A stretch of 64,000 bases of DNA from Paracoccus isoporae. GTDB taxonomy: Bacteria; Pseudomonadota; Alphaproteobacteria; Rhodobacterales; Rhodobacteraceae. How positions within the stretch are numbered: the stretch's first letter is position 1; each line of letters starts with the position of its first letter. The notes beneath the pieces were generated by a model. The model did no database searches. It saw only the letters and a program-made list of their open reading frames with translations, and was not told where the DNA came from. Location of the stretch: the NCBI RefSeq assembly GCF_900101865.1, contig NZ_FNAH01000012.1:1-64000 (forward strand), written 5' to 3'. This document shows, one piece after another, positions 15,272 to 62,469 of this stretch. The position numbers and the translations under genes were made by a program.

Positions 15272-15951
15272 ACGTGACCAGCATGCATAGAGACCTTCAG
15301 ACAGCCGTCCTGCGGCTGCCACAAACAGTTCGTGATTGGGACCTGGTGGCGAAGTTCCTTGCTTTCCGGAAAGAAATTTTCGTTGACCACAAAGGCTGGC
15401 CGATCTTTCACACCGACGAGCTTGAGTTCGACAACTATGATGGTGGCTTTGATCCAGTCTATATCGTCGCCCACCGTGGCCGTGATGTTGTTGGTGGACT
15501 GCGGCTGAAACGGACCGACGGGCGCTTTGGCTCGGGGTCGGTGACGTATTCATACATGATCCGGGATGCGTGGCTTGGATTATTGCCGGGGCTGCCCCAA
15601 AACCTTTGCGCGGTCGAGCCGCCAGTAAGCACGAGCGTTTGGGAGATGACGCGCTTTGTTGCGGCCCGCGAACCCGAGGTTGTCGAAGCCCTGCTCTTGG
15701 CTGCTAACGACTTTCTGTTTACAGAATCTGCAGACGAATGCCTGTTTCTAGGCTCCCGAGCCTTTCCACGCTTAGCACGCATGCTTGGTTGGGACGTGCA
15801 GCTCATGGGGGAAGTCGTCGGTAATGACGACGGCAAGTTTGTAGCGTTTCGGTGCCCGGTTATGGATCCTGCAACGGCTCTGACGAAATGTCGGGGGCTG
15901 GATCGCCTGCTTGGGCGCGGAACGTCCGGTATGCTTCCCATCCTATCGTAG
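15268..15951 (+). CDS. luxI: Acyl-homoserine lactone synthase
   Basis: The 227-residue protein shows the LuxI signature: FRKEIFVDHKGWPI with the invariant Arg, Phe and Trp, DELEFDNYD with the conserved acidic residues, VGGLRLKRTD, and VWEMTRFVA with the catalytic Glu and Arg. It would make an acyl-HSL from S-adenosylmethionine and acyl-ACP. The usual length is about 200-220. The TTG at 15268 overlaps the previous stop; the ATG at 15283 is an alternative. The 3' 92 bp overlap the antisense gene ending at 15860. Confidence 0.9.
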   Translation: MNVTSMHRDLQTAVLRLPQTVRDWDLVAKFLAFRKEIFVDHKGWPIFHTDELEFDNYDGGFDPVYIVAHRGRDVVGGLRLKRTDGRFGSGSVTYSYMIRDAWLGLLPGLPQNLCAVEPPVSTSVWEMTRFVAAREPEVVEALLLAANDFLFTESADECLFLGSRAFPRLARMLGWDVQLMGEVVGNDDGKFVAFRCPVMDPATALTKCRGLDRLLGRGTSGMLPILS

Positions 15952-49791: not shown

Positions 49792-51666
49792 TTACAACTC
49801 GTGACCGAGATCCTTATTGCGCGAGACGTGATGCTCGTCGGCCTCCTGCTCGGCCATCTTCTCTTTGACCTGCCGGGTCTGGGCGAGGGTCATGCCGACT
49901 GACTGATGGGATTCGCCCGCCGCGGCCACAGCCCGCGCGATCGCCCGACGCTGACCCGCATCAGGGAAGTCAACGGCCAGGGCGTTGGTGTCACCCGTCG
50001 CGAGCCGCGCCATGGCATTCTCGCCATAACGTTCGCGGAAGTCGAAACCGAAGCGGGCGGCATGCTCGTCATTCTGGAACTCGACCTTGCCGTGCTGGGC
50101 ATGGGAATCGGCCATGGCGGACAGCGCGCGGGTCAGCTTGTCACTCGTGGCTTCCTGCTCGATCGGTACCGCGCGGGAAATCGTGCGGGCAGCCGCCGCA
50201 TAGAAGGTATCGACCAGATCGGCCGCCCTGCCCCGCCCTTCCTCGGAAGACAGATCGATCTTCTTCGCGTCGGCTACAGCCAGGATATCGGCCTTGATCC
50301 ATTCGCGCTCCTGCCAGGCATTTGCGGCTCCGGTCACCATCCGGGACTGGATCACGATCGGATCGAGACCTGCCTTCTCTGCGGCCGCGCCGATCTGCGC
50401 CGTCATTTCCTTTGAGCCATCCGGCCCGATGACCTTGTGCTTGTCCTCGATGGTGATGCGATCTCCGTCCATCTGCACTTGATAGACCGGGGTGCGCGGG
50501 GCATGGTGCATCAGCTGCGCGCCGCGATCATCGCCCAGATCGCGCACGATCTCCGAGGCAATACCGTAGAGTTCCTCACGCATTTCGCGCTGCTCCTGCA
50601 CGGGCAGGCGCGAAATGTCCTTCTCGCTTTCATCCAGCCAGTTCCCGAAGGCATTGGCCAGATCGCCGCGATTGCGGATGGTATCGAGGTCCATGACGAT
50701 CTCCTGATTTCGGTGATTGATGATGCCGCCCTGTTCCAGCAGGTCGGCTGCGGCCTCGATCTTCCGGGCCAGGTCCTCGTCGCTGATGAGCGTGGCCACG
50801 ACCGCGAGACTGCGCAGCGTCTCGATATTGCGCTGAATGTGATCGAGGGCATCGCTGAGCGCCCTGCCCTGGCGGCGGGCCTCGACGGGCTCACGGCCTT
50901 CACGCGCAGCCCGCTCGATCTCGGCCCGTGACGGCCCATAGGTCAGGACGCCCCGGTCCAGGCGGCTGCTCTTGTCCAGAAACATGCCCTGCCCGGCGGC
51001 GATCTCGACCAGCCGTTCCTTCATGAAATCCAGATTAAAGGCGTGGTCCTTCGCCATATAGAACCAGTCGCCATTCTCCAGGCCCCGGTTGTTCACGACG
51101 ACATGGACATGCCTGTTGACCCGATCGGTGTGCAGGGCCGCAACATAGGCCCATTCCTCGCCATCCGAATGCAGACCGGACTGGAACATCTCCATGCACC
51201 ATTCTTCGACCACTGGCCGGCCGCGCTCCCCGCTCACATCGAAGGGGAAGGAAACCAGCAGATGCGTGGTATGGCCGTTCTTCGGATCGCCGGTCCATTC
51301 GTCAGACCACTGATCGACGATCACCTTGCGCTGATCGCCGTTCAGCGTCCGGGCGCGCGGGTCCAGATCGGCCATGTTGCCGAACACCGCCGCTGCCTTG
51401 GAAAAGAGGTAATCCAGCTGGTTGCCAAGCTGCTTTCCGGTGTGCGTGCCGCCATTGTGGATCTTCTTCAGCACCACCGCATTCGAGCCCTGGGCGACGC
51501 GCCACAGGCCCGCCGCCCGCCCGGAAAATTTCGGCTTCGGGGTCATGAACCTGTCGAACTCGCGCGCGACCTCGGCCTGCTGGAAGGCCAGCATACCCGC
51601 CCCGCCCTGCCAGATCGGAAACTCGATCTCGCCGATCAGCGCCTTTGCCAGTCCAACCCGGCTCAT
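49792..51666 (-). CDS. VirD2-like relaxase (MOBP)
   Basis: The 624-residue protein has relaxase motifs in order: the candidate nicking Tyr87 in GNQLDYLFSKAAAVF, then motif III HTDRVNRHVHVVVNN with His179, His186 and His188 as the metal triad. The C-terminal 400 residues are helical and charged and probably carry the T4SS export signal. It would nick oriT and pilot the strand. It overlaps its accessory protein gene by four bases. Confidence 0.9.
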   Translation of the reverse strand: MSRVGLAKALIGEIEFPIWQGGAGMLAFQQAEVAREFDRFMTPKPKFSGRAAGLWRVAQGSNAVVLKKIHNGGTHTGKQLGNQLDYLFSKAAAVFGNMADLDPRARTLNGDQRKVIVDQWSDEWTGDPKNGHTTHLLVSFPFDVSGERGRPVVEEWCMEMFQSGLHSDGEEWAYVAALHTDRVNRHVHVVVNNRGLENGDWFYMAKDHAFNLDFMKERLVEIAAGQGMFLDKSSRLDRGVLTYGPSRAEIERAAREGREPVEARRQGRALSDALDHIQRNIETLRSLAVVATLISDEDLARKIEAAADLLEQGGIINHRNQEIVMDLDTIRNRGDLANAFGNWLDESEKDISRLPVQEQREMREELYGIASEIVRDLGDDRGAQLMHHAPRTPVYQVQMDGDRITIEDKHKVIGPDGSKEMTAQIGAAAEKAGLDPIVIQSRMVTGAANAWQEREWIKADILAVADAKKIDLSSEEGRGRAADLVDTFYAAAARTISRAVPIEQEATSDKLTRALSAMADSHAQHGKVEFQNDEHAARFGFDFRERYGENAMARLATGDTNALAVDFPDAGQRRAIARAVAAAGESHQSVGMTLAQTRQVKEKMAEQEADEHHVSRNKDLGHEL

Positions 51667-52456: not shown

Positions 52457-52586
52457 ATTCAGGACCAAGCCGCAGGGGTGATAGCCAAACCCCGCCAGCA
52501 GGCCCCACGCGCCCTCTCCGTGCGACCTAGCTCCGGCACCAACAACGGATCGCGCAGTACAGCTTACGGATGTTGCTTGTTGCATT

Positions 52587-52690
52587 GCGCATGTCGTATG
52601 TTGCAGCCACTTGTGCTTAGTGCCTGCCATTTTATATCGCATCACGTAGCGCGCATAACGTTTGTTGCACCGCGCATGTCGTTTGTAGCA
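52587..52690 (+). repeat. Three 19-bp repeats upstream of the VirC1-like gene
   Basis: The pattern GCGCATrwCGTwTGTwGCA occurs at 52587-52605, 52651-52669 and 52672-52690. Copies differ at four positions at most. Partial copies with CGCATCACG or GCGCATCATG continue to the start codon at 52847. Such iteron-like repeats next to a ParA/VirC1 gene could be the binding site for its partner (centromere or overdrive-like enhancer). Confidence 0.7.
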
Positions 52691-52846
52691 GTTCGCAAAT
52701 TGGGGCACGTATCCCGCATGAGGCATATTGCTTGACGTATTGCGTATCTAGGAGACTGTATCGCGTTTGCGGTACAGCGCTTGTCGCTTTTCGGTTATCG
52801 TGTTACGCATCAAGGACACCGCATCACGCAGAACGGATAGCGCATC

Positions 52847-55932: not shown

Positions 55933-56832
55933 TCACGCGGCGGCCCTGTCTTCAGTGGCGTCGGCCTCATCAGTTGACGCGGCTTTCAACAACCAATCGG
56001 CGGCCTTCTGTGCTTCCGATGCAGCTTTGAAGATCAGGCGCTTGTCGTCAGCCAATGCCCGCAGCCAGCTTTTCAGATAGGCCGCCGACTGGTCGAAATC
56101 GGGTGTCAGCCCAAGGCTCGCGCAAACCATGCAATTTCCGACCTCGGCCACCAACTCCTCGAACGCAACGGCCTTCCGGTCAGTGAAACGGCCAAAGCGA
56201 TCAAGCCGCGACTTGTGGCCCGTCCAATGCGTTGCCTCATGGGCGAGGGTGGCATAGTACCCGCCTGCGCTGTGAAAGGTCGCCACGGGCGGCATGTGGA
56301 TGTAATCCTCGCCGGGGACGTAATAGGCGCGTGGCTCGTCACTGTGGCGAATATCGGCACCCGTCCCGGCAAAGAATGCGTCAAGCTCGGCATCGGCTTC
56401 GGTGCCAAGGTCGCGGGCAGGATCGGCAGGCTTCGCCTGAAAATCCGCCGGCAATCCGTCGATCTGCTCGGCGTTGAAAACACGATAGGCTTTCAGATAT
56501 GGAACGCGCTTGTCTGCGCCGGTGTCCTCGTCCTTGCGATCAACCGTGCCATATTTCACAACGGTTGATGATTTCTCGCCCTTGCGGACCTGCCCGCCTG
56601 CCTCCTGCGCTTGGCGATAGGTGAACCAATAGGCGCTGCGATAGCCGTTTTCCTCGGCGGCCAGCCAGAGCATCAGCACATTGATGCCGCGATAATATTC
56701 GCCATTGGCGCGGCGCGGAAAAGGTGCGCCGCCCGCTTCTCCGGTCCATGGTTTGCGCCATGCGGGCGTACCTGCCTCAATGCTGCGGATGATCTGGTCG
56801 GTGATGGTCTGGTAAAGATCGAAAGTTGCCAT
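55933..56832 (-). CDS. ardC: ArdC-type antirestriction protein
   Basis: The 299-residue protein has the ArdC N-terminal ssDNA-binding domain (about 5-125, AWRKPWTGEAGGAPFPRRAN, YWFTYRQAQEAGGQVRKGEK). A zincin-like C-terminal domain follows with LAHEATHWTGHKSRLD (His198, Glu199, His202). ArdC proteins protect incoming plasmid DNA from restriction. The start at 56832 has a GGAGG site. The gene is directly preceded by a 371-bp leader that is repeated at 61423-61793. Confidence 0.9.
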   Translation of the reverse strand: MATFDLYQTITDQIIRSIEAGTPAWRKPWTGEAGGAPFPRRANGEYYRGINVLMLWLAAEENGYRSAYWFTYRQAQEAGGQVRKGEKSSTVVKYGTVDRKDEDTGADKRVPYLKAYRVFNAEQIDGLPADFQAKPADPARDLGTEADAELDAFFAGTGADIRHSDEPRAYYVPGEDYIHMPPVATFHSAGGYYATLAHEATHWTGHKSRLDRFGRFTDRKAVAFEELVAEVGNCMVCASLGLTPDFDQSAAYLKSWLRALADDKRLIFKAASEAQKAADWLLKAASTDEADATEDRAAA

Positions 56833-56840
56833 TTGTGGCC

Positions 56841-57211
56841 TCCTTTTTTCGCGACGATCCCGCCTTGGTCTTTTGCCTCGGTCGGGGTGCCCATAATGGG
56901 CGAAGGTTTCAGGCGAGAAGCGCGCAGCGCGCCCTCTCCTGAAGCCTTGCCAGGTGGCGAACCGGGCCGGTGAATTTCCAAAGGCGGCGCAGCCGGGACC
57001 GGAGCCACGCGCAGCTGCACGGAACCGAAGCCGCAGGCGAAGGTGGAGGAAGCGAGCATGGCGAGGACCCACCCTTTGGAAAGAGGGCCGGAACAGGCCC
57101 TCAATCCAGGACGCGGCGCGCGCCAGCGTGACGTGGCCCAGGCAAAGCCGGGGCGTTCGGCCTCCGGACGAATCCTCCGGCCGACGGCAGCCCGCGCATA
57201 GGCGCGGGCTA
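56841..57211 (-). repeat. 371-bp leader repeat, copy 1 (before ardC)
   Basis: This segment is about 93 percent identical by eye to 61423-61793, in the same orientation and of the same length. It includes the AAAAAAGGA ribosome site of ardC at its downstream edge. It has no convincing coding frame. Inverted stretches such as CCCGCGCATAGGCGCGGG (57191-57208) are present. It appears to be a shared promoter/leader module. Confidence 0.85.
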
Positions 57212-57259
57212 CCAGATCCTGATCGGCAGTAGTTGCAGGGCGATGCGATCGCCATTGGC

Positions 57260-57457
57260 GCCCGCGCCAGTGACCGTCACCCGAATGGGCCGAGACGGGC
57301 AGGGCAGGGCGACCAGGACCGGCGCGCGAGGATCTGGCTCGGGACGAGACAGACCGCAGAAGCCGCAGCCGGTCGCATCTCCCTGAATGGCTCGGATCGA
57401 GGGCGCGCAGCGGCCGAGATTAGGGCACGGTTCCCGGACGAAGGAGGGGGAGGCGCA
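57260..57457 (-). repeat. About 200-bp repeat, copy 1
   Basis: This segment matches 62470-62669 over nearly its whole length, strongest in the first 130 bp. It lies between nrdH and the ardC leader. No gene frame is convincing. The sequence is very G-rich on the plus strand. Confidence 0.8.
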
Positions 57458-57619
57458 GAAAGGAGTTTTCCGGCAGGCACATCAGAACCCGCAAAACGCT
57501 ATCCACAATACGGTAACCGACAAGCAGAAAGAAAAGGGGCTGTCTGCCCCTCGCCGCATATGCGGCTCACCCCGAGGATATTTGAAGTAGGTGCTGGGCG
57601 AAGGGACGGCAAAGCCGCC

Positions 57620-57838
57620 CTAGAGGGCGGCGATGCGATCGGGGCGGAAGCCGGACCAGTGGTCGGCGCCTGAAATCACCACGGGGGCCTGCCGATAGCC
57701 CAGGCTTTCAACGAAGCGCAGCGCGTCGTCGTCTTCGGTCAGGTCAACAACCGTATAGGCGACGCCTTTTGCGTCGAGGCTGCGGGTGGTGGCGGTGCAT
57801 TGCACGCAGGCGGGCTTGGAATAGACGGTGATGCTCAT
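57620..57838 (-). CDS. nrdH: NrdH-like redoxin
   Basis: The 72-residue glutaredoxin-like protein has the CVQC redox motif (residues 11-14), GVAYTVVDLTEDDDALRFVE and YRQAPVVISGADHWSGFRPD, as in NrdH, the electron donor of class Ib ribonucleotide reductase. No reductase genes are nearby. In an entering plasmid it might support dNTP supply for strand synthesis. An AAGGAG site precedes the ATG. A cruciform element lies 58 bp upstream. Confidence 0.88.
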   Translation of the reverse strand: MSITVYSKPACVQCTATTRSLDAKGVAYTVVDLTEDDDALRFVESLGYRQAPVVISGADHWSGFRPDRIAAL

Positions 57839-57895
57839 GGCTGTTCTCCTTTGCTTCTGTGAACCTGTTTTGGGTCGAAGCATCAGGGTGGTGGT

Positions 57896-57951
57896 CAACA
57901 GCTAATTTGCCTCGCGAGGAATGGCCATAGGCCAGGGGAAATTAGCTGTTG
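57896..57951. repeat. Branched cruciform element, copy 1 (before nrdH)
   Basis: An outer stem of 13 perfect pairs (CAACAGCTAATTT, 57896-57908, with 57939-57951) encloses two further palindromes: CCTCGCGAGG (57910-57919) and TGGCC-ATA-GGCCA (57922-57934). A single strand would fold into a three-way junction. A related copy lies at 62112-62161. Another stem, ATCATGCC-AAG-GGCATGAT, follows at about 57961-57979. Confidence 0.8.
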
Positions 57952-58039
57952 AAGGGGTGAATCATGCCAAGGGCATGATGCGCACCGCCCACCAGCCGCT
58001 TCGGCCCAGGGTCACAGTAAGGAAGCAAAGGAGAACAGC

Positions 58040-58190
58040 CATGTGACGCCGGATCCAGCTGCGACGGCAATGCACCGCCACCGCCCGGCAAAGCGCGCGG
58101 CCGTTCGCTGTTGACCTGACCGAAGACGACGACACGTCACAGAAAGCAGCGGTCGGCGGGTGGTGATTTCTGGTGCTGACCGGCTGGTTG
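58040..58190 (+). pseudogene. Degenerate inverted copy of nrdH
   Basis: The plus strand repeats the nrdH leader (GAAGCAAAGGAGAACAGCC, then ATG, then TGA at once). Blocks of the gene follow: AATGCACCGCCACC, GTTGACCTGACCGAAGACGA and GGTGGTGATTTCTGG. Many bases are changed and frames are lost. It is a decayed second nrdH in opposite orientation, forming an inverted duplication with the intact gene. Confidence 0.75.
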
Positions 58191-58237
58191 ACGAGCCGCT
58201 TGGGATGGCAGTTAGTTGGCCTATGGCACCCGTGACG

Positions 58238-58509
58238 CTAGTTTTCATCCGTCGGGATGATGCTGCATTCGCCCCGCGTCCAAACGCCGCCGGCCTCGCT
58301 GCAAGCCTGGCTATCCTGCGGCGGTGCCCACCAGGCAGCGATCCATTCTGCCAGGTATGGCCCGACGAAGTAGGCGCTCGACACGATACCGACCCCTACG
58401 AAGAACGCCGCGACGCCCCACCATGGTTGGCACGACGGAACAGCAGAATGCTCCCGGCACAAACTGCAAGACCGACGATGAGCAAGAGAATGGTTAAGAA
58501 AATGGCCAA
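58238..58509 (-). CDS. Small membrane protein with apparent frameshift
   Basis: From a TTG at 58509 (GGGGG site upstream) the frame reads LAIFLTILLLIVGLAVCAGS, ILLFRRANH and stops. The overlapping frame gives WWGVAAFFVGVGIVSSAYFV, GPYLAEWIAAW and ends CSEAGGVWTRGECSIIPTDE. Joined by one frameshift near 58430 they form a plausible protein of about 90 residues with two membrane helices. The product may be broken, or made by frameshifting. Confidence 0.4.
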
Positions 58510-58521
58510 CGTGATGCCCCC

Positions 58522-58550
58522 AAAGAAAAAAGCCCCGCCGAAGCGGGGCT
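58522..58550 (-). terminator. Rho-independent terminator of the methyltransferase operon
   Basis: AGCCCCGC-TTCG-GCGGGGCT followed by TTTTTC on the minus strand. It lies 38 bp after the methyltransferase stop at 58588 and is the strongest terminator in the window. Confidence 0.85.
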
Positions 58551-58587
58551 AAAGTGCCTTTTCGCGAAAAAAGGTTAGGGAACGGTA

Positions 58588-60024
58588 TCACTTTGTCAGG
58601 GTGAGGACCACCGTATTGATGCGCACACCGACACTGGCGAAGCTCTCGGCCGGCAGGTCTCGCCAGAGACCGCGCCGCCAGCCGCGCGTGGCATGGCTCT
58701 CGGCCCATGCCCGAAAGCATTCGTGCTTTGCGGTGCTGCCGACCTCGGCAGAGGCGGGCAGGATCGCGCGCAGCTCGCCGCCCGGCTTCAGGAAGTCGAA
58801 GGCATGCCTCAGATGATTCATGAAATGTGTCCCGGCGAACGGCGGGTTCATGACGACATAATCATAGACCGGCCGGGCGGGCAGCTTCAGGAAGTTCGCG
58901 CATTTCACGCTCAGGGCGGGGTGGGCGATGCCGCGCAGAGCCTCGGTCCGGTCGGGATGGACCTCGATCGCGTCGACGTTCGCGCCCTGCGCCAGCAGGG
59001 GGCGGACGAGCGCGCCGACGCCGGCGCTTGGTTCCAGGATCCGCGCGCCCGGTTCGATCCGCAGCCCGTCAAGCAGGTAGTCGACGACTTCGGCCGGGGT
59101 CGGATAGAAGGCCAGATCCTTTGCAAGCGCGGTGCCCGGCCAGAAATCGGCGGGCTGCGCCTCGGCGCCGGCGGCGTCGGGCAGCACCTCGCCGTAATAA
59201 TCGGCCAGCACGCGGTTCACCTTCCGCAACAGGGTTTCATCCTTGATCCAGAGATGCAGGTTTCCATTCTTGAAGGTGCGGGCGAGGAAATATTCGCTTT
59301 CGACCTCGCTCTGCCGTGCGCCGTAGCGGCCGCGTCGGCTAACCTCGATGGCGTGCTCAAGCGCGCCATAGGTCCGGTTGCCGGCAAGCTGCGAAAACAC
59401 CCGCTCAACGTCGGCCAAGGTGCGGCGCATCTGTTCGCCATGTCCAGAATAGGACCAGTACCCCCCTTCGCTGAACACCCATTCGAAGATCATGCGCTTG
59501 TTGATCTTGAAGGCGTCGTGGCTCTTGAAGGCGGGCGACAGTGACGCGAAGGCGCGCGCCACGCCGCGCTGAAAGATCAGGTTGGCCTCGCCGGTCAGGC
59601 GGGCGAGGGTGGCCCGGATCGTCTCGAATGTCGGTTCCGGCATGTCGTTTGCGGCCATCTGCTTGTCGAGCTGGTCGCGTTCGGTGCGGTCCATGATTTC
59701 CTTGAGGCGGGTTTCCTCGACGATGCGGCGCCAGATTGCGGCATCCAGGGTGCGCTTGTAGGTGGCGAAGGTCTTTTCGGTGTCGAAATCGGGATAGAGG
59801 GATTTTTCGACGGTCTGGTTGTCGTCGTAGTGCAGGTAAGAGGCGTGACCGGCGGTCGCGCCCTTGGCGGTCTCGGCCGCGCCGCGCGCGAGGGCGTAGC
59901 CCTTCGCAATAGCGGCAATAGCCTCTTCCATCTCGGACAGCGCGCGTTCGCGCATCATGCAAATGGCCTCGATGTTGAGGGGCGCGACAAGCGCCCCTGC
60001 ATTGAAGGACAGCGGGGCGTTCAT
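58588..60024 (-). CDS. DUF4942 methyltransferase
   Basis: The 478-residue protein has an N-terminal DUF4942 region (about 20-270, KSHDAFKINKRMIFEWVFSE). A SAM-dependent DNA methyltransferase domain follows with RILEPSAGVGALVRPLLAQG (motif I, about 335) and YDYVVMNPPFAGTHFMNHLR (motif IV NPPF, about 393), as in N6-adenine methylases. It probably methylates plasmid DNA and may protect it from restriction; no cognate endonuclease is nearby. It is the last gene of a five-gene operon, coupled by ATGA to the previous gene. Confidence 0.85.
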   Translation of the reverse strand: MNAPLSFNAGALVAPLNIEAICMMRERALSEMEEAIAAIAKGYALARGAAETAKGATAGHASYLHYDDNQTVEKSLYPDFDTEKTFATYKRTLDAAIWRRIVEETRLKEIMDRTERDQLDKQMAANDMPEPTFETIRATLARLTGEANLIFQRGVARAFASLSPAFKSHDAFKINKRMIFEWVFSEGGYWSYSGHGEQMRRTLADVERVFSQLAGNRTYGALEHAIEVSRRGRYGARQSEVESEYFLARTFKNGNLHLWIKDETLLRKVNRVLADYYGEVLPDAAGAEAQPADFWPGTALAKDLAFYPTPAEVVDYLLDGLRIEPGARILEPSAGVGALVRPLLAQGANVDAIEVHPDRTEALRGIAHPALSVKCANFLKLPARPVYDYVVMNPPFAGTHFMNHLRHAFDFLKPGGELRAILPASAEVGSTAKHECFRAWAESHATRGWRRGLWRDLPAESFASVGVRINTVVLTLTK

Positions 60025-60473
60025 TTCTGATCCTTCCCGTTGGTGGCATCCAGCAGCAGTTCGCGCAGCTCGGCCAGCGGATGATTTTCGAAATCGTCAT
60101 CGCGGAAATCCTCGGGGCCATCATATCCGGGGATCTCGTCATGGATGCGCTCGGCCAGTCGGTCGGCCAGCCCCGCGACAGTCCCGCCGGTACTGCGCCA
60201 GTCGCAATCGACATAGTGGACGGGTGCGCCGGTCGCGACCTCAAGCGCCAGCAGGGCGCGGCCAGCCTCGCCGACCTCAGCATCATGGACAAGCTGCCAG
60301 CCTTGGCCGGTATCGCCATAGATCGACCAGAAGGCGCGTTCCGCAGGGGGGCAAACCTCGATGGCCTCATCATAGTGGTTGCCGCGCTCGATCCGCACGG
60401 GCGAAACACAGAAGCGCCGGAAGCTGGCGGGGCTATCCCCCGCCGAAAGTCCGTTGAAGGAAATGGGGCTCAT
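60021..60473 (-). CDS. Hypothetical protein in the methyltransferase operon
   Basis: The 150-residue acidic soluble protein (RFCVSPVRIERGNHYDEAIE, AERAFWSIYGDTGQGWQLVH, WRSTGGTVAGLADRLAERIH) has no domain I can name. It overlaps the methyltransferase and the upstream gene by four bases each. The central segment is typical of plasmid-borne small proteins of unknown role. Confidence 0.65.
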   Translation of the reverse strand: MSPISFNGLSAGDSPASFRRFCVSPVRIERGNHYDEAIEVCPPAERAFWSIYGDTGQGWQLVHDAEVGEAGRALLALEVATGAPVHYVDCDWRSTGGTVAGLADRLAERIHDEIPGYDGPEDFRDDDFENHPLAELRELLLDATNGKDQK

Positions 60474-60943
60474 GCGGTGGCCTCCTTGCTGGCTTTGAAG
60501 TCCTCCAGCATGACGCCAATGTCATGCGGGGTTGGCAGATCGCCATAGAAAATTGCGGTTCCGATATAATCGGGGCTTGAAAACGTGCGGCTCCGCATCG
60601 GCGTGTCATGGTCGGCATATGCGCGACAGCGGGTTGTCGCTGCGGTATCGGGGCGGCGAAGGAAATAGACGTGCCACTTCGCCAGCCCTTCGGGGTTGGT
60701 TTCTGCGTCCCGCTTGAGCATGGTCGCCGCGAGACGTTCCACCTCGAACGAACGGGCGCTATCGCGGATGGAAGGGTGGCAATCGGGCGCGCCCCATGCA
60801 CCGCCTTCCTGAATGGCGAATTTGTTGCCGGGAAAGCGTTCGGCCAGCAGGCGGGCATAGATCTGGGCCGCGCGTGCGCTGACCACAGTGATTACGAAAG
60901 CGCCGGGCTGATGATCGGATTGAAGGACGGAATAGGGGATCAT
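60470..60943 (-). CDS. Hypothetical protein in the methyltransferase operon
   Basis: The 157-residue protein starts MIPYSVLQSDHQPGAFVITV and has SARAAQIYARLLAERFPGNK and WHVYFLRRPDTAATTRCRAY. No family recognised. The start at 60943 overlaps the upstream stop (TGATG), fixing the start and arguing for coupled translation. Confidence 0.62.
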   Translation of the reverse strand: MIPYSVLQSDHQPGAFVITVVSARAAQIYARLLAERFPGNKFAIQEGGAWGAPDCHPSIRDSARSFEVERLAATMLKRDAETNPEGLAKWHVYFLRRPDTAATTRCRAYADHDTPMRSRTFSSPDYIGTAIFYGDLPTPHDIGVMLEDFKASKEATA

Positions 60944-61152
60944 CACATATCCCCGCCGTTGATGCGCTCGCAAAGCGCGTCGATCTCATCCAGCGATAGC
61001 GGGTCAATGTCGCCGCCATTGGTCATGATCTCGTTGATCGGCGCCGGCACCCGGTTGGAACCTTGAAGCAACCGCAGGCCAGCGAGGATGGCCGAGATCT
61101 CGGCCAGGTCAAAGCCGGCGGTGATGGGCTTGTCGAAAGCGGCCATGTTCAT
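60943..61152 (-). CDS. Small hypothetical protein in the methyltransferase operon
   Basis: The 69-residue acidic protein (FDLAEISAILAGLRLLQGSN, IDPLSLDEIDALCERINGGD) has no known domain. It is coupled to both neighbours by overlapping start and stop codons. Confidence 0.58.
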   Translation of the reverse strand: MNMAAFDKPITAGFDLAEISAILAGLRLLQGSNRVPAPINEIMTNGGDIDPLSLDEIDALCERINGGDM

Positions 61153-61415
61153 GCCCCCACGAGGCCGAGTTCGCGGATGGCCCAGGCGTCGGCATATTGA
61201 ATAACCGGGGTCAGGCCGAAGGCTTTGGCGCCGACAATCGGGCCGATCCAGCCGCTGAGCTTCGGCAGTCCCTGCAATTCCTTGCTGGCGAGGGGATCAT
61301 CGACATAGCCGGTTATTTCGGCGTCATTGGCCGCGATCCAGCTTTCCAGATCATCGCAGGCATCGCGGCAGATGCCGGCATCGTCGGTCATGACGTAAAA
61401 TTCAAAGAGAACCAT
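61149..61415 (-). CDS. Hypothetical protein, first gene of the methyltransferase operon
   Basis: The 88-residue protein MVLFEFYVMTDDAGICRDAC, DDLESWIAANDAEITGYVDD has a GGAGAG ribosome site that is part of the 371-bp leader repeat beginning at 61423. No family known. It stands to the second leader exactly as ardC does to the first, so both transcripts probably respond to the same signal. Confidence 0.62.
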   Translation of the reverse strand: MVLFEFYVMTDDAGICRDACDDLESWIAANDAEITGYVDDPLASKELQGLPKLSGWIGPIVGAKAFGLTPVIQYADAWAIRELGLVGA

Positions 61416-61422
61416 TCTACTC

Positions 61423-61793
61423 TCCTTTTTTCGCGACATTCCCGCCTTGGTCTTTTGCCTCGGTCGGGGTGCCCATAATGGGCGAAGGTTTCAGGCGAGA
61501 AGCGCGCAGCGCGCCCTCTCCTGAAGCCTTGCCAGGTGGCGAACCGGGCCGGTGAATTTCCAAGGGCGGCGCAGCCGGGACCGGAGCCACGCTCAGCTGC
61601 ACGGAACCGAAGCCGCAGGCGCAGGTGAAGGAAGCGAGCATGGCGAGGACCCACCCCTTGGAAAGAGGGCAGGAACAGGCCCTCAATCCAGGACGCGGCG
61701 CGCGTCAGCGTGAGGTGGCCCACGCATAGCCGGGGCGTTCGGCCTCTGGCCGAATCCCCCGGCCGACAGCAGCCCGCGCATCAGCGCGGGCTT
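61423..61793 (-). repeat. 371-bp leader repeat, copy 2 (before the methyltransferase operon)
   Basis: Direct copy of 56841-57211 with scattered substitutions. The distance to the gene start (eight bases) matches that of copy 1 (nine bases). Palindromic blocks such as CCCGCGCATCAGCGCGGG (61773-61790) are conserved despite base changes in the loop, which favours a structural role. Confidence 0.85.
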
Positions 61794-61850: not shown

Positions 61851-62045
61851 TTATTCCTGCTCGTCTTTTTCCCGACGCGGGAAGGCCACCATGTCGACAT
61901 TCGGGAACATGTTGTGACGAACGCTGATGGAGGTGATTTCCCCGGCCTCGTTGGTGTTCACGAAGACCACGCCGCAGCGATCCCAGAAGGTCGTGCCGTC
62001 TTTTTCGCCGGCTTTGACTTTGAGGGTGAAGTTTTGAGAAGCCAT
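61851..62045 (-). CDS. Small conserved-looking protein
   Basis: The 64-residue protein MASQNFTLKVKAGEKDGTTF, WDRCGVVFVNTNEAGEITSI looks like a small beta-rich protein common on alphaproteobacterial plasmids, with no assigned function that I know. An AAAGGA site precedes the ATG at 62045. The second cruciform element lies 67 bp upstream, as the first does for nrdH. Confidence 0.68.
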   Translation of the reverse strand: MASQNFTLKVKAGEKDGTTFWDRCGVVFVNTNEAGEITSISVRHNMFPNVDMVAFPRREKDEQE

Positions 62046-62111
62046 CTTGAAGTTCCTTTCCATGGGTTTTTCGATGAAAACGACAGAGTGGGTAGGGAAA
62101 GGGGCTGTCAG

Positions 62112-62161
62112 CGGCTAATTTCTTTCGCGAGGAATGGCCGCAGGCCAGGGGAAATTAGTCG
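62112..62161. repeat. Branched cruciform element, copy 2
   Basis: Outer stem CGGCTAATTT (62112-62121) pairs with AAATTAGTCG (62152-62161) with one mismatch. The inner palindrome TGGCC-GCA-GGCCA (62135-62147) is kept, with the loop changed from ATA to GCA. The core CGCGAGGAATGGCC is identical to copy 1 at 57896-57951. Confidence 0.78.
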
Positions 62162-62469
62162 TTGAAGGCAAATGCCGCATGGCAGCATGTGCCGGTCTGC
62201 CCCGACTGCCTGCTAGGTTTCATCAGATAGAAAAACCACATGAACGGAACGCATGGCTTCGGGACCGTCATCCCTGTCAATCGTACGAAAAAGACGGCAG
62301 GAACTGGCGGTTGTGCAGGCGCATCGCTCGATCCAACGAGGCCGGGGAAATCACCAGGCGCAGGCAACAGTCGCATCTTCCCGAATGACGGCATGGCCCG
62401 GCGGCGGGATGACGATCTGGAGGGCAGGCAGGGCAGCGACTGCAGACTCTGGCGCCACTTCGCGCCCCC

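Follow-up and report, generated by a model that had tools for sequence, protein, structure and literature searches.

A repeated multi-hairpin leader and an associated covarying palindrome upstream of putative plasmid leading-region genes in Paracoccus

The first 64,000 nucleotides of contig NZ_FNAH01000012.1 of Paracoccus isoporae (here called the window, and belonging to a contig of 92.8 kb) carry two copies of a 371-bp leader, one in front of the anti-restriction gene ardC and the other in front of a five-gene operon that ends in a methyltransferase-like gene. We found that this leader is a family, far larger than two copies, and that a second element, a 62-bp palindrome that we call D3, lies upstream of both copies in the window. 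Our preferred reading, to which we give a probability of a little under one half (about 0.47), is that the leader is a conserved multi-hairpin control element reused before leading-region units, and that together with D3 it turns on genes for establishment and anti-restriction at an early stage in the recipient. This reading draws on features apparent in the sequence, namely the copies and the family they belong to, a spacing to the start codon that is conserved, stems that covary, the common orientation, and a strand bias in D3. The original prediction, made from the letters of the window, had taken the leader for a single-strand promoter that is a non-homologous counterpart of the Frpo elements of enterobacterial plasmids. 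It fits as regards the place, the gene content and the lack of similarity to Frpo; the single-strand mechanism that it assigned to the 371-bp element stays unproven, and D3 was absent from its list.

The leader family and the genes behind it

Repeat comparison confirmed that the two predicted copies are direct repeats of 371 bp each on the minus strand, 4582 nt apart from start to start: leader copy 1 at 56841..57211, ending in the ribosome site of ardC, and leader copy 2 at 61423..61793, ending in the ribosome site of operon gene 1. The copies are 97% identical over a gapless 300 nt and 95% identical over 370 nt, and their common end is AAAAAAGGAG. The spacing of eight to nine bases that had been predicted holds in that both copies end just before a start codon; the real gaps are 8 nt to the ATG of ardC (56832) and 7 nt to that of operon gene 1 (61415). 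The conserved palindromes with differing loops are also present as described, the first hairpin having the loop CTAT in one copy and TGAT in the other, with most stems retained, and in a long-range helix formed by TTTCCAAAGG and CCTTTGGAAA one pair is, by eye, changed on both sides between the copies. Beyond the window, a third full copy at contig position 71646-72012 ends before a DUF3768 gene, and a 140-nt piece of the leader is found on a separate contig (C17).

A BLAST search of 72,556 plasmid records yielded leader matches in 20 of them, 14 from Paracoccus, with 44 places in total. Plasmid p2 of Paracoccus albus carries a copy that is 100% identical to one on the contig of the window, and the gene order operon, nrdH, ardC, relaxase is also common to the two. 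A covariance model built on the last ~127 nt of the leader (R1) matched 33 of the 125 genomes examined from the genus, and 11 of 394 genomes from the family, 10 of these among the 392 sampled from other genera. Six copies occur together on a single plasmid (G115 contig C3).

The leader stood directly 5' of a gene in 74 of 83 rows of matches from the genus and in 20 of 23 from the family, counts that include duplicate records of single sites (one site, where the gene has a broken frame, accounts for two of the 74). Behind the genus rows were 23 genes of the DUF3768 type, 21 of ArdC and 11 of the 88-aa type found as operon gene 1 in the window, then a 78-aa type that is the first gene of an ardC operon (8 rows), a 208-aa type (7), a 123-aa type (3) and 1 other; the family rows add ParB-like genes and several genes without a known family. 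These gene types (ardC, DUF3768, the 88-, 78-, 123- and 208-aa types, and ParB) are non-homologous. The original prediction had suggested searching for the repeat in front of other leading-region genes; the search found it mostly before ardC, DUF3768 or the same type of operon. For typed gene classes, 56 of the 73 genus rows and 9 of the 14 family rows place the start 8 or 9 nt from the ribosome site. Among the plasmid stretches that we fetched, all 22 distinct copies with a complete 3' end had a start codon 0-8 nt on, one of them opening a broken frame; shorter pieces of the leader without a gene also exist (L009, L012).

The aligned leaders share a chain of hairpins. In the 5' part these are a hairpin at the very end, a stem closed by GGGG..CCCC around TTCGG/CCGAA, and two more stems, followed by a variable middle; in the 3' part they are a small GCC/GGC hairpin, a long imperfect hairpin of ~22 pairs, a short hairpin of the GCCCAT/ATGGGC type, and a last hairpin before the ribosome site. 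Alignment of the copies and their homologues, a check put forward with the original prediction, indicated that these hairpins covary, as judged from the alignments: between groups, TTCGG/CCGAA is replaced by TTTGG/CCAAA, GGGAACC/GGTTCCC by GGGGACC/GGTCCCC, and GCC/GGC by GGC/GCC. The fold of the 371-bp leader is modestly stabler than that of its shuffles (z of -2.15 for the coding strand as RNA and -2.50 for the other strand as DNA), and the fold stability of either strand, taken alone, decides nothing. None of 4227 Rfam families, radC and STAXI included, reached its gathering score in the window and the related stretches searched; the radC RNA, our first guess at the identity of the leader, found no support in Rfam. 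In the literature searched, with most subscription papers outside it, no title or abstract start dealt with the leader or with D3.

We note several further features of leader copies. Plasmid pBM152 of P. tegillarcae (81.9 kb; L006, L010) has two direct copies of its leading region at a distance of ~57.2 kb, and each of the two includes three leader copies. On P. albus p2 (L005:3537-4292) the DUF3768 gene is annotated from a start within the leader, and the start that is conserved lies where the leader ends. A number of copies are broken near one spot, the GCCCAT/ATGGGC hairpin that follows the long hairpin (L012:5921-6065 and 15689-15788; L009:23467-23614; breaks at the same spot also in L089, L091, L092, L093, L095 and L097), and the breaks affect copies preceding DUF3768, operon and ardC genes alike. 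Both kinds of new end carry ATAGTTCTGCC, in inverted order. From these sequences it looks as if a mobile element, ~9.7 kb long in L012, inserts at this hairpin, and candidate contents of such an element are an AAA ATPase (L012) and an AAA_23 protein (L092). In the window, the segment 54680-54760 resembles by eye the variable middle of other plasmids' leaders (GTGTCCTCG..CTGCGGGCCGCACCACCCC), with the rest of the leader absent, and the variable middle may be a separate, shuffled module. Additional direct repeats (57259-57404/62469-62614, 95%, and 57411-57457/62623-62669, 83%) accompany both leaders of the window, and their order relative to D3 differs between the two.

D3 and the strand that folds

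D3 copy 1 (57892..57957, minus strand, with the 62-bp palindrome at 57894-57955) lies 53 nt upstream of an nrdH-like glutaredoxin gene (57620..57838, minus strand; PF00462, 7e-13), which is in turn followed by leader copy 1; nrdH is annotated at the corresponding place in the P. albus plasmid. D3 copy 2 (62105..62170, minus strand, palindrome at 62107-62168) lies 59 nt upstream of a 64-aa gene (61851..62045, minus strand) that precedes leader copy 2 and gave no known family in library searches. The model of D3 (R2) matched 31 of the 125 genomes of the genus. In the family it matched 51 of 394 genomes at E<=0.01 per genome, a threshold at which a handful could be chance, and 38 of 394 at E<=1e-4. 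Several D3 per contig are common. In other genera D3 precedes DUF736 genes (two tested proteins) and small genes of no known family, and some weak matches have no gene start nearby. By eye, the base of D3 carries TTGAC, and no -10 partner accompanies it.

The D3 stem covaries strongly, in an alignment that was fitted to the structure and therefore inflates the figures: 89.5% of its cells are paired and 226 are changed on both sides, as compared with 31-64 in slid controls and with none of 500 shuffles reaching 226, and the covariation score is 0.51, against 0.12 shuffled and at most 0.11 slid.

The irregular pairs of the stem carry information on which strand folds. A G·U pair is legal in a folded strand and, read on the opposite strand, appears as A·C. 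On the coding strand of D3 we counted 71 A·C against 3 G·T cells in 57 distinct rows, or 29 against 3 when distinct sequence contexts were taken (p 5e-5 against base composition). Among seven stem families, five have 3-29 A·C cells and at most 2 G·T cells, one has 1 and 0, and one has none. A recount free of the model, in which some elements were counted in more than one register, gave 38 A·C and 11 G·T contexts (p 0.01). Because the coding strand tolerates A·C and hardly G·U, D3 apparently folds as the template strand; its pairing appears to have been kept on that strand, which under the leading-region rule discussed below would be the incoming strand, and not within mRNA. For D3, then, early expression from single-stranded DNA is supported by sequence, which makes D3 a better candidate for the single-strand mechanism than the leader in which that mechanism was first sought.

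Orientation toward the relaxase and comparison with known systems

All of these elements lie on the same strand as a relaxase gene of the MobA/VirD2 type (49792..51666, minus strand; PF03432, 3e-7). Upstream of this gene and of the open frame that precedes it, a cluster of short repeats of two families (D8 and D9) occupies 52577..52842, and this cluster is the likely candidate for the origin of transfer (oriT); in P. albus the gene immediately before that of the relaxase is mobC. The leaders and D3 of the window all sit across 52577-52842 from the relaxase, reading toward that point.

The same arrangement recurs elsewhere. The leader strand is that of the PF03432 relaxase in 52 of 52 copies on 28 contigs, a set that leaves out four known gene-free copies, one of them on the opposite strand. 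Forty of the 52 point at the relaxase on the linear contig, the other 12 being on contigs where closure of the circle may restore the path, and the nearest leader is within 9 kb of the relaxase in 17 of 25 contigs where a leader points at it. D3 shares the strand of the relaxase in 77 of 77 matches (46 contigs, relaxase within 150 kb), 64 of which point at it, with the nearest D3 within 7 kb in 30 of the 41 contigs concerned. A common strand with the relaxase is as expected of leading-region genes. Because the relaxase side of oriT is the lagging side under a rule taken from an excerpt of Samuel et al. 2024 (PMC11541004), the genes behind the leader would lie in the leading region and have the incoming strand as template, if that rule holds. 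The nearby island is also of a familiar kind, in that anti-defence islands of plasmid leading regions likewise hold anti-restriction genes, methyltransferases and small unknown genes on one strand next to oriT.

To our knowledge, the Frpo/ssi elements of enterobacterial plasmids are the single-strand promoters with the best experimental support. Their layout is close to that of the window: two near-identical long copies ~5 kb apart in a leading region, placed directly before genes for SSB and other establishment functions, with an anti-restriction gene and methylases in the same region and the genes read toward the transfer genes. In the excerpted text of PMC9849209, Frpo1 and Frpo2 of the F plasmid are given as 92% alike and ~5 kb apart; in our own comparison the F copies lie 5.39 kb from each other and align at 90% identity along 212 nt and at 95% along 154 nt. 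The same excerpts report that early proteins did not rise in recipients of F with the Frpo copies deleted (PMC9849209). The elements themselves differ. Frpo rebuilds -35 and -10 boxes, a consensus that the leaders here lack in a linear scan of the E. coli type; the 371-bp leader is a GC-rich chain of many hairpins without a model match; and the plasmids are of another bacterial class and by plasmid typing have MOBP relaxases, not MOBF. As the original prediction had it, there is no homology: R1 and R2, searched against 11 loci of which 9 hold Frpo copies, gave a best E of 0.73 and nothing at E<=1, respectively. A further locus, L212, is titled Streptomyces morookaense contig 164 (4.9 kb) and has a psiB 97% identical to that of F; it is probably enterobacterial plasmid contamination of that assembly. 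The search of Samuel et al. 2024 used BLAST with five known Frpo/ssi sequences and a -35/-10 consensus, as described in the excerpt, and the terms 'alphaproteobacteria', 'rhodobacter' and 'ardC' are absent from its main text (PMC11541004).

Competing explanations and the proposed mechanism

Several results weigh against the preferred reading. The copies counted for orientation are related, so that the counts of 52 of 52 and 77 of 77 are not independent. Nine of the 83 rows from the genus and three of the 23 from the family lack a gene start at the expected place, and no D3 match was found upstream of leader copy 3 within L101. The wobble bias of D3 lies largely at three of its 19 pairs, and with those removed the counts are 5 and 2. 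As a positive control, Frpo behaves weakly: in 20 copies, taken from F and eight further sources, we counted 32 A·C and 18 G·T contexts, which leans the same way as D3 but has p 0.19 against composition. The leader has no strand bias of this kind. Its long hairpin shows 34 G·T against 26 A·C among 55 distinct best hairpins, at least 3 of which come from broken copies and are not the long hairpin, and hairpins 2-4 show 15 A·C against 11 G·T contexts, neither strand being favoured; the A·C cells of hairpin 2 lie mostly in a conserved internal loop and are not counted as evidence. Finally, we found no -35/-10 (sigma-70-like) consensus in or beside the leaders, having scanned 200-460 nt upstream with an E. 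coli-type consensus on the linear sequence only. A separate wobble count on freely predicted folds (28 A·C against 10 G·T contexts) was discarded, as shuffles of the same composition are A·C-rich too (918 against 502).

For the 371-bp part, the strongest competitor is that it works as RNA, in the form of a long structured 5' untranslated region that would control translation, stability or termination in a plasmid regulon, with an ordinary promoter further upstream. We regard this as less likely than the preferred reading. The inclusion of the ribosome site and the fixed distance to the start codon fit it well, and there is no strand bias to speak against an RNA form. The loops of the leader hairpins conflict on which strand folds. 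By eye, the small hairpin that precedes the long one has coding-strand loops of the GNRA kind in most alignment rows (the window copies are without them), and four rows, all of one other genus, have a coding-strand GCA loop in the long hairpin, as RNA would suggest. Of 62 rows, 31 have a long-hairpin triloop that is T-N-C when read on the coding strand and G-N-A on its complement, and in another 29 a shift by one register allows the same reading; G-N-A triloops are very stable in DNA, a point against the RNA reading. The radC RNA (RF01754) lies before anti-restriction and DNA-handling genes and, with STAXI, shares with the leader the possession of conserved structures. STAXI is a structured RNA described near anti-restriction and DNA-handling genes, for which the authors weighed single-stranded DNA against RNA; it differs from the leader in being described as tandem pseudoknots (PMC2864571, excerpt). 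Against an RNA leader, G-U should exceed A-C were RNA the sole folded form, and in the counts given above it does so only slightly in the long hairpin and not at all in hairpins 2-4; nor did the upstream scan find the promoter-like site that such a leader would need.

A second alternative is that the elements are single-strand initiation sites, loading a primosome or primase for the second strand in the recipient, and are near genes by descent and not for their expression. Hairpins in several copies across one region, and the wobble bias of D3, are what such sites would show. This alternative is nevertheless improbable in our judgment, in view of the exact fit of the leader to ribosome sites and start codons before unrelated genes, and because the gene-free copies that we read were mostly broken. 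It is still harder to see the elements as operators of the usual double-stranded kind, in which a plasmid regulator such as the ParB-like protein of the region would bind the inverted repeats and co-regulate units in the donor: the presence of several copies per plasmid and of a ParB-like gene in this region would suit that role, but operators give no reason for A·C and not G·T on one strand of D3, and the leader is 371 nt long with many different stems. A functionless duplication, or REP-like repeats, might account for two nearby copies and for partial copies elsewhere, yet it is hardly credible given the covariation, the family-wide recurrence, the fixed gene distance and the single strand, which likewise contradict the outcome, random duplications only, that had been named as fatal to the original prediction.

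In the preferred reading of a control element acting early in the recipient, the incoming strand would fold, and D3, possibly also the leader, would give host RNA polymerase (or primase) an entry on the still-single strand. Transcription would then proceed toward oriT via the small gene, the leader and the operon, and the burst would stop with second-strand synthesis. D3 would supply the start, and the leader would either shape the mRNA or give a second start. In this scheme we infer the side of oriT that leads, the single strand as active template, the timing, and the anti-defence role of the operon. Because there is no match to Frpo and no -35/-10 pair, any single-strand promoter action here would have to come from another fold, or from a host polymerase with other signals.

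Turning to the genes at the locus, the ardC gene (55933..56832, minus strand, 299 aa) encodes both the ArdC N-terminal domain (PF08401, 1e-40) and a zincin-like metallopeptidase domain (PF18818, 4e-46). The operon spans 61415-58588 with every gene on the minus strand. Its genes 1 (61149..61415, 88 aa), 2 (60943..61146, 67 aa), 3 (60470..60943, 157 aa) and 4 (60021..60473, 150 aa) belong to no known family, matching no model in Pfam, PHROG, NCBIfam or PADLOC. Gene 5 (58588..60024, 478 aa) combines DUF4942 (PF13708, 3e-43) with a methyltransferase-like C-terminal half; it matches a phage DNA methyltransferase profile at 4e-38 and mad2 at 3e-20, with PF13649 below its cut-off (24.5 of 27 bits). 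Just after the operon, an intrinsic-terminator-like hairpin with a T run can be seen by eye at 58525..58550 on the minus strand, and a weak Rfam hairpin match covers 58524-58581 (27.4 bits, gathering 49.5). An anti-defence or establishment role for this DUF4942-methyltransferase operon is plausible because of its neighbourhood and the leader that it shares with ardC. In P. tegillarcae and P. zhejiangensis the leader also stands before a sister operon whose last gene is that of an N6 methylase, and the gene just before ardC in P. zhejiangensis has a weak match, below the Pfam cut-off, to the restriction alleviation protein Lar.

More broadly, we tentatively suggest that alphaproteobacterial plasmids may have evolved their own single-strand expression system, independent of Frpo and built from two folded elements that are unrelated to each other: a 62-bp palindrome with incoming-strand pairing, found across dozens of genera of one family, and a 371-nt hairpin chain fused to the ribosome site of each leading-region operon. 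If this is true, a non-homologous counterpart of Frpo, marked by pairing rules alone, would mean that the solution arose more than once. It would also provide a route to leading regions, and to unknown anti-defence genes, outside Enterobacterales. Whether wobble bias, with G·T on the incoming strand and A·C tolerated on the coding strand, is a predictor of single-stranded-DNA function would become a directly testable question.

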